From: Antennarius striatus
Lineage: Eukaryota > Chordata > Actinopteri > Lophiiformes > Antennariidae
Reading direction: 5' to 3'
Length of the DNA: 64,000 nt
NCBI RefSeq assembly: GCF_040054535.1
Contig: NC_090780.1
Coordinates: 12,180,501 to 12,244,500, forward strand
The notes under the pieces: generated by a model
Database searches by the model: none
What the model saw: the letters and a program-made list of their open reading frames with translations, nothing else
What the model was told of the DNA's origin: nothing
Part shown: positions 31,940-34,900 of the stretch, piece by piece
Position numbering within the stretch: the first letter of the stretch is position 1
Layout of the letters: the number at the start of each line of letters is the position of its first letter
Position numbers and translations under genes: made by a program

Positions 31940-34900
31940 TTACTCTTCATCTTTTGTCTGAAATGACATGAAAATGTATATTAAAACAAATGGCCAACCA
32001 ATTTAAATGTAAGACTGTTACGTCCCTTGGCACAGGGGCTGTAACAAAGACATTTTGCACAGTTAAATAGAATATTGATTGGCTCTGATATTGACTTTTA
32101 CTTTGACAATTTCCCGACTCTTTGCTCTCAGTTTGTTGACTTGAGACTCAGCAATGTCAGCACGCTCCTCAGCCTCCTCCATCTCATGCTGCACCTTCCT
32201 GTACCTGGACATGTGAGCGTTGGCCTGCTCCTCCTGTTTGATATGAATAAGTGAAGTCAAAACCTCTTGACTGAGTCAAATTTTCATTTTATGCGCCATC
32301 ATGAGAATCAGGTATAATGTACTCACAGCTTCTTCAGCTTGTCGCTTGTAGGATTTCATTTTCAGCTGCAACTTGTCAACCAAATCCTGAAGTCTGGTAA
32401 TATTCTTCCTATCTTCCTCAGTCTAATGTAAATAAACAGTGATAGAATCTTTTAATAAAATTCAATATTATCAAAAGCACACTACTGAACATTGTCAAGA
32501 TCATTTGTCATTTTTGTTTAAGTATTAGTCCCTAACAAGAGATATGTACCTGATAGGTGAGCTCCTTAACTCTTCTCTCATATTTCCTCACTCCCTTGAT
32601 AGCATCAGCACCACGTCTCTGTTCAGCATCCACTTCACCCTCCAATTCCCGAACCTTGTGTGACAAAGAATGCAATGTTTTATGAAACAGAAAATTGTTC
32701 TGTGGCTTACACAAATATGCAGAGGTTCTGCCTCTGTGCAATTACCCGAGCCTCCAGTTTCTGGAGCTGCTTCTTTCCACCTTTCAAAGCCAAATTCTCA
32801 GCTTCATCAAGACGGTGCTGCAGATCCTTCACAGTCACCTCCAGGTTCTTCTTCATCCTCTCCAAATGAGCACTGGTGTCCTGCTCTTTCTTCAACTCTT
32901 CTGCCATCATGGCTGCCTATTTTGGAGAGTATTGTTGTACATTGTGCAAACGTGTTGTTATTCTAGATAATTACTGTGTTTTGAAAACTTTTGTTGTGAA
33001 ACTTGAGAGGGATGACTTACATCAGTGATGGCCTTCTTGGCTTTTTCTTCAGCATTTCTTGCCTCCTGGACAGAATCCTCCACCTCACCTTGGATCTGGA
33101 TGAGATCAGCCTCCAATTTCTTTTTGGTGTTGATGAGACTGGTGTTCTAAAGAGAGGATAATATGGCTTACAATCTTCCATTTTCAGGTCAAAATGTCAT
33201 TCAATGACTCACATACTTTTATCGTCTGGGGTATCATGATTTGAACCTTGAATCTACCTGAGAGTGCAGCAGCCCCACGCGCTCGCTGGCATCAACCAGC
33301 TCCTGTTCAGCGATTTTGCGGCTTCTCTCCGTTTGCTCCAGAGCAGCTCTCAGCTCCTCGATCTCAGCCAGCATCAGGTTGTTCCTGCGCTCCACCATGG
33401 CAACCTGTTCCTTCATTTCTTCCTGACCTCTAATAGCATCATCAAGGTGCAGTTGTGCATCCTAAATAGAATTAAAAATCAATTTAGCTGCGGTCCAAAT
33501 GAAGCTGAAATAGTCCACAGTTTTAATGAACTGCTGTACCTTCAGCTGTCCCTGAACGTTTCTCAGCTGTTTCTGGGCTTCAGCTGCTTGGCGGTTGGCG
33601 TGGCTCAGCTGAATCTCCATCTCATTGAGGTCTCCCTCCATTTTCTTCTTGATTCTCAGGGCATCATTCCTGCTCCTGACCTCAGCATCCAAAGTGGTCT
33701 GCATGGTTTCTATTACTCTCTGGCTATTCCTCTTGATCTGTTCAATCTCCTCATCCTTCTCTGCAAGTTTCCTCTCAATTTCACCCTTGACTTGGGTGAG
33801 TTCAAGCTGAACACGGAGAATCTTGGATTCTTCATGCTCCAGTGTAGCCTTGTCAAAAAAACAAAATAGAGACCATTGGCATCATTTGAAGTTGTGAATA
33901 CGTTTTCATATTTGTTAATAGACAGTACCTCTGCCTCTTCCAGGGACGTCTGGAGTTCAGATTTCTCTGACTCTACTGTCTTTTTCCCTTTTTCAAGTTC
34001 ATGAATTGTTTTTCCACTCTCGCCAATTTGTTCAGTTAGATCCGAGATCTCCTCTGTAAGAAAGGTAATAGAGGTAATTAGAGGTGTGAACTGTATTATC
34101 TATCTTGGCTTTTTGATGGACATTTGGATTTAATATTCTGTACACCTGTGAAGTCATGCACTGGATGTTAGACTATATTGAATACATAAAACTGTTTGCC
34201 CACTTGGGGGCGTACTTGTCCACGCTTTTATGCCAAGTGTGACACTGCTCTTTCAAAGTCTGACAGTGTGTATTAAGGAAAACCAGATACAAGATTTGTG
34301 AAATTCTAAACAATTAGACCACTGTGAATGCATTTTGTTAGTGAGTTTAGTGGTGAGTTTATCATCTTAGTATTTAGCAATTCCATACGTTGCAGATTCT
34401 TGTTTTCTCTCTTCAGGGTCTCCAGGTGGTCCAGAGCTTCTTCGTATGAGTTCTTCAGTTTGAACATCTCAGTGCTGAGAGAGCGAGCTTCTTTCAGAGA
34501 TCCCTCAAGCTCTGCCTGGCTTTCCTCGTACTTCTGCTTCCATTCTGCAAGAACCTGCAAACATGATAATAATCCCAGTGTTTCAACAATTCTATGGTCT
34601 TCATTTAAGCAACAGAGAGATGAACACATTTCTTACCTTGTCAAAATTCCTCTGCTTTTTGTCGAGGTTAGCTGCCAGGGCATTAGCTCTCTCCACATCA
34701 ATCATCAAATCTTCCACCTCACCCAGGAGTCTCTGTTTGGTCTTTTCCAGAGAGGCACATTTAGCATTCACAGCCTCAATGGATTCTTCTGCATCCTGAA
34801 GACGCTGAGCCAGCTTTTTCCTGTTTTCACATAGAATGTAAAGGTTTGATAAGGATTTACCATGTTTATATTTGTGGAAACCATTTGAATTCAGGCCTGT

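Follow-up and report, generated by a model that had tools for sequence, protein, structure and literature searches.

A perfectly identical tract of 240 bp shared by two oppositely oriented myosin heavy chain genes of Antennarius striatus was very probably left by a recent ectopic (interlocus) gene conversion between these skeletal-type paralogs. The two genes, A and B, lie in a window of 64 kb (the whole stretch of DNA analysed; C5:12180501-12244500 in an assembly of 548 Mb in 42 contigs), and a third gene, C, follows past its end. Within the tract synonymous and intronic differences are zero, outside it they approach saturation, and each gene has kept its own flanking introns, so the preliminary description was right to read the tract as recent conversion. 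The same kind of exchange is local and recurrent, and it works across opposite orientation.

Two inverted myosin genes and the tract they share

Exons were modelled by a pairwise search for segments bounded by AG and GT that have an open frame and are conserved in both A and B, and they are numbered from the first modelled coding exon. The 34 paired exons are collinear, both frames are open as modelled, and both copies have been retained; in A, translation points to additional 3' exons that would reach to about 32000. The amino acid is the same at 1627 of 1761 codons (two small gaps left out). When exon 32 of A was compared with the Protein Data Bank, myosin-4 (6ysy) was the best match (E 5.2e-42) and myosin-7 the next. 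Judged by their sequences, A and B are sarcomeric myosin heavy chains arranged head to head, and we take them to be of the fast skeletal type of teleosts on the strength of their resemblance to known sequences and the layout of the cluster. For the layout of teleost myosin clusters, this typing drew on excerpts of PMC3869912.

The Pfam search of ten window open reading frames bore on neighbouring genes only. It matched a Kelch-like BTB/BACK frame at 6460-7539 (-), a sulphate-permease frame and, weakly and short of the curated cut-off, a STAS domain at 10545-11204 (+) and 15742-16254 (+), and LINE-like reverse transcriptase fragments at 14164-14775 (-) and 27864-28613 (+). No relatives were found in viral_contigs and genome_contigs.

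Table. Coordinates of the genes, tracts, introns and clusters discussed in the text (window positions unless a contig is named).
Feature	Position	Strand	Remarks
Gene A, predicted sarcomeric (fast skeletal-type) myosin heavy chain	33021..43068	-	34 modelled coding exons
Gene B, predicted member of the same family as A	52860..63759	+	34 modelled coding exons; truncated by window end
Gene C, third myosin gene	C5:12254605-12265372 (modelled exons)	+	34 exons modelled; begins about 10 kb past window
Perfect 240-bp tract, copy A	33435..33674	-	by sequence comparison; 3' 135 nt of exon 32, whole intron 32 (33462-33539), first 27 nt of exon 33
Perfect 240-bp tract, copy B	63141..63380	+	intron 32 is 63276-63353
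Extended tract in A	33249..33674	-	426 bp, 3 mismatches to B
Extended tract in B	63141..63566	+	426 bp, 3 mismatches to A
Intron 21 of A	37480..37566	-	75/87 matched to B 59809-59907, z 10.5
Part of A identical to C over 299 bp	37133..37431	-	holds all of intron 22 (37222-37302)
Part of B identical to C over 291 bp	61882..62172	+	holds all of intron 28 (62025-62107)
Intron 2 of A	42420..42499	-	78/80 identical to gene C
Three-gene myosin cluster C4	C4:4336000-4377300		approximate
Three-gene myosin cluster C16	C16:15236700-15279600		approximate
Three-gene myosin cluster C18	C18:16963100-17013000		approximate

The tract matches at 240 of 240 bases once copy A is reverse-complemented, with a mismatch flanking either end, and the 78-bp intron reported inside it agrees with the gene models in both copies. 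Two further claims made at the outset are borne out, namely that the exon just upstream has diverged (24 of 174 sites differ at 62967-63140) and that the intron after the next exon is unrelated (58/69 matched columns, 49 gaps, z 1.9, no better than shuffles). Past the 240 bp, mismatches occur only at 63381, 63501 and 63519 before the match ends sharply at 63566, 9 bp into intron 33, where homology ends. Whether taken as 240 bp without a mismatch or as 426 bp with three, the tract length falls in the range of tens to hundreds of bases expected of gene conversion. It is odd that these three exon 33 differences all change the amino acid, with zero silent sites differing; this counts against the conversion reading, on what is a small sample.

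Set against the rest of the two genes, the tract is exceptional. Synonymous divergence (dS, NG86) drops from 0.97 in non-homogenised exons to 0.59 in the 5' part of exon 32 and to 0 in the tract, and 0 of 41 fourfold sites differ within the tract versus 155 of 539 elsewhere. Because dS in the other exons is so high and the introns are unalignable, the duplication that gave rise to A and B must be old. Among 1566 degenerate codons with the same amino acid in both genes (1193 of them identical), the run of identical codons in the tract is the longest, at 106; it was reached in 0 of 20,000 permutations, and its exact run probability is 1.0e-10. When sites of A and B that are already homogenised serve as the baseline (identity 0.938), the coding run is unexceptional by itself (P 0.056), whereas coding sites and intron together, 180 sites free of mismatches, are (P 1e-5).

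Intron 32 is the sole identical one (78/78) of the 33 paired A-B introns. None of the other 32, on which the preliminary description had made its reading depend, is equally identical, the nearest being intron 21, whose sequence marks it as an older tract shared by A and B. Introns 28 (z 5.7) and 29 (z 3.9) show weaker A-B similarity, and the 29 remaining paired introns lie below z 3 against shuffles.

Exons 3, 13, 14, 20-22 and 25 of A and B are also homogenised, less so than the tract. A two-state segmentation of silent sites returned nine segments of raised similarity, which include exon 3, exons 13-14, exons 20-22, exon 25 and 63050-63636; we make no claim for the last segment, of three sites, or for those with a posterior below 0.9 (58005-58173 and 60315-60468). 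A three-state segmentation and segmentations with introns were rejected as over-split. Other runs, of 57 (exons 21-22, P 6.6e-5), 51 (exon 14, 3.4e-4) and 43 (exon 25, 3.0e-3), are each improbable under a uniform rate.

Two insertion-bearing segments, the most variable ones of the motor domain, lie outside the homogenised A-B stretches. One is in exon 5 (about 41919-42027 in A and 53949-54060 in B), and the other spans the exon 14/15 junction (about 39187-39400 in A and 56680-57200 in B). We take these to be loop 1 and loop 2, respectively; the A-B identity of exon 14 breaks off just ahead of the putative loop 2.

A mosaic of three neighbouring genes

Each pair among the three genes has one perfectly identical intron: intron 32 in A and B (78/78), intron 22 in A and C (81/81) and intron 28 in B and C (83/83). 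The perfect tracts around them measure 240, 299 and 291 bp, and the other perfect tracts measured are 203-562 bp long, apart from one of 60 bp. Together the three introns offer 242 sites, none of which differs, which indicates that the exchanges are young relative to the age of the genes. Besides intron 2, A resembles C in introns 12 (95/115) and 20 (68/83), and B resembles C in intron 5 (66/80). In other words, the nearest relative in the intron alignments shifts from patch to patch: for A it is B at intron 32 but C at introns 2, 12, 20 and 22, and for B it is C at introns 5 and 28. A is inverted with respect to B and C, which share an orientation, and exchange has occurred in both arrangements. 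The suggestion that the inverted layout would allow conversion therefore holds insofar as the inverted pair A-B does exchange, but exchange is not tied to inversion, since the same-orientation pair B-C exchanges too.

When intron 32 was used as a query (91 bases) against the 548-Mb assembly, the best-scoring candidates comprised two places only, A and B, very common words being skipped. The 240-bp query found 15 places among the best candidates, with full-length, gapless identity confined to A and B. Its first 140 bases matched gene C at 99%, that is, the exon without the intron, and intron 32 of C does not align with that of A or B.

The comparison with C also bears on the direction of transfer, for which A as donor and B as recipient is the somewhat favoured assignment. 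In the 5' part of exon 32 (174 nt), B has 18 private differences and A and C have six each; in the 3' part (135 nt), A and B do not differ, and each differs from C once. B thus seems to be the copy that changed type, because it carries those 18 private differences in the 5' part yet only 0-1 in 135 in the 3' part. At 63135 and 63138, B stands alone against A, C and the genes of clusters C4 and C16. At 63381 it is A that differs; B and C have GTT, which is also found in the gene C4c, and the other outgroups vary. At 63501 (GTC) and 63519 (CTT), B and C agree against A, which there matches the C4 genes, at 63519 on the amino-acid level; the last part of the extended tract was probably exchanged between B and C as well. 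The simplest story is that an A-like stretch with its intron was copied into B and that a separate exchange between B and C affected the end of exon 33. More complex exchange histories fit equally, because C, too, hardly departs from A and B over the 3' part of exon 32.

We propose that a double-strand break in the exon 32/intron 32/exon 33 region of one gene was probably repaired with the corresponding site of the other as template. A few hundred bases would have been copied, at least 63141-63380 and probably to about 63500. The A-specific single-base change at 63381 would be later than the conversion, and the final 57 coding bases in exon 33 would have been exchanged between B and C too. The tract would then be part of an ongoing local patchwork, made of short conversions between neighbours in a cluster and not across clusters, which would fall mostly inside conserved exons and occasionally take a short intron along.

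Local exchange in four clusters and alternative readings

Nine genes were modelled likewise in C4, C16 and C18, which together with C5 make four three-gene clusters. The models are without exon 1 in C4a-c, C18a and C18c and without exons 16 and 17 in every C18 gene; the comparison excluded introns that contain N or are longer than 900 bp, and an intron counted as matching when its z exceeded 6 and its identity, taken over all columns, exceeded 0.6. All 12 within-cluster pairs have matching introns (1-29 each), and none of the 54 between-cluster pairs does (27-33 introns compared in each). This indicates that conversion is local and that the introns are not conserved elements. The C4 cluster is homogenised almost throughout, and its genes may be young duplicates. 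Within C16 and C18 there are single pairs with identity across entire runs of introns, from which the third gene departs. In C4, a run of 2500 N (C4:4362501-4365000) separates the second gene from the third; it is either a gap or a withheld stretch. A shared hotspot at intron 21 over the four clusters was considered, but by circular shifts neither a single intron common to all four (P 0.19) nor the 5 introns matching in three or more clusters (P 0.51) reach significance.

An assembly artefact, in which reads of one copy filled or polished the other over a few hundred bases, would likewise give a perfect match with sharp ends, and the C4 cluster region does contain a 2500-base run of N. We nevertheless regard an artefact as improbable: there are no unresolved bases (N) in the 64-kb window or in the C5 stretches fetched up to and beyond gene C, in an assembly whose 548 Mb fall into 42 contigs; fixed differences edge the tract (three within 426 bp); and the patches join varied partners in four clusters, with a spread of ages (75/87 to 81/81 identity), unlike one filling error. 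Gene C differs from A and from B at just 1/135 sites in the 3' part of exon 32, which implies that it took part in the history of this exon, and A and B could each have received the tract from a third paralog. Intron 32 of C is unrelated, however, and the search of the assembly with this intron matched only A and B, which makes such a source very unlikely, though the donor may have been lost since.

Non-coding identity can also signal constraint, and purifying selection on a regulatory or RNA element could hold the intron and the silent sites identical. Yet intron 32 of A or B is unalignable with that of C, nor does it align between clusters under the matching criterion given above; no Rfam family reaches gathering scores in the window, and the predicted fold of the intron (z -1.0) is no better than shuffles. 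Its presence in A and B only in the assembly, together with the absence of sharing in the 54 between-cluster pairs, argues that intron 32 is not a conserved element, and we consider selection extremely unlikely. That the genes are recent duplicates, the remainder of which merely diverges fast, is next to impossible, being contradicted by the dS of 0.97 in the other exons and by the unalignable introns. Transfer through a spliced copy (cDNA) was rejected, as the intron is present in the tract.

Exon length and concerted evolution in the myosin family

The silent identity of A and B increases with exon length (Spearman 0.63, P 7e-5; 0.58 without exons 32 and 33). It is at least 0.83 in 8 of 14 exons of at least 150 nt versus 0 of 20 shorter ones (P 1.7e-4, with the cut picked post hoc). 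The corresponding correlations for the remaining pairs, those of one cluster not being independent, are 0.68 for A-C and 0.29 (not significant) for B-C in C5; 0.41, 0.59 and 0.61 in C18; 0.37, 0.33 and 0.10 in C16; and 0.09, 0.24 and 0.12 in C4. Among the 54 pairs from different clusters the median is 0.19, with values from -0.20 to 0.57 and a single one above 0.5. At the level of clusters, the values are 0.59 for C5, 0.62 for C18, 0.32 for C16 (P 0.07), 0.25 for C4 (P 0.16) and 0.22 between clusters (P 0.22). The exon profile of C5 tracks the between-cluster profile (rho 0.62), which suggests that part of the exon-length pattern is shared codon conservation. After the between-cluster profile is subtracted, the correlation persists in C5 (0.61) and C18 (0.56) and is lost in C16 (0.23, P 0.21). 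Longer exons are more homogenised in two of the four clusters (C5 and C18), as a minimum-homology limit predicts, and not clearly so in C16 and C4.

The position of the mismatches shows a related pattern. In six homogenised exons, mismatches occupy 26 of 360 sites within 30 nt of the exon ends versus 34 of 1034 inside (P 0.0024); in control A/B exons of equal length, the counts are 215 of 1348 and 251 of 1551 (P 0.88). This pile-up at exon ends fits repair that dies out where homology stops. Excerpts of the literature describe a minimal efficient processing segment of about 200 bp in yeast (PMC3924818) and a minimal homology requirement in mammalian cells (PMC2583991), and name diverged introns as a barrier to conversion (PMC3966223). 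We tentatively hypothesize, with more doubt than confidence, that exon/intron layout decides which parts of these genes evolve in concert. Once the introns have diverged, exons may become islands of homology that are convertible only above roughly 150-200 nt, and the gene may come to combine long, young exons with short exons (variable surface loops) that are free to diverge. A narrow search of open-licence papers found none on an exon-length limit on conversion, a result too limited to establish novelty.

Gene conversion in skeletal myosin genes was reportedly described by Moore et al. in 1992. Going by the title, the process and the gene family are the same, and the detail is not comparable; unlike that work, ours concerns a fish genome, inverted as well as direct neighbours, four clusters, and whole-intron tracts as markers. 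In teleosts, excerpts of PMC12776057 describe MYH clusters of three or more genes, such as stickleback MYH3C, and two inverted MYH clusters in zebrafish, and attribute within-species grouping to independent expansion or extensive gene conversion. As far as those excerpts go, that study infers from gene trees, whereas here individual tracts are visible and tree-based gene ages would be mosaic. Interlocus conversion between adjacent inverted and direct copies is described for Caenorhabditis paralogs in excerpts of PMC3966223, in which one cited survey puts intron-including tracts at 15% of events. Our cluster resembles that system, so excerpted, in its inverted and direct conversion, its intron-bearing tracts and its diverged-intron barrier, and differs in having a vertebrate-type gene of at least 34 coding exons in which the intron barrier is visible exon by exon. 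At the level of its abstract, PMC10503786 reports interlocus conversion among 164 duplicated teleost genes as general in teleosts, with model estimates from codon data and no tract maps; here the tracts are mapped. Conversion in skeletal myosin families is already known, and this cluster shows it unusually clearly.

A single cluster supplies three clean marker introns, one per pair, and three further clusters serve as replicates. Where an intron is identical in one pair but unrelated in the other pairs, it provides a simple marker by which individual exchanges can be mapped and dated. In such clusters, gene trees, dates and orthology calls drawn from whole myosin genes are mosaic. If the dependence on exon length is general beyond these clusters, the minimum-homology limit would be measurable from genome sequence alone, and the same dependence would explain which exons are homogenised and which diversify within multigene families.
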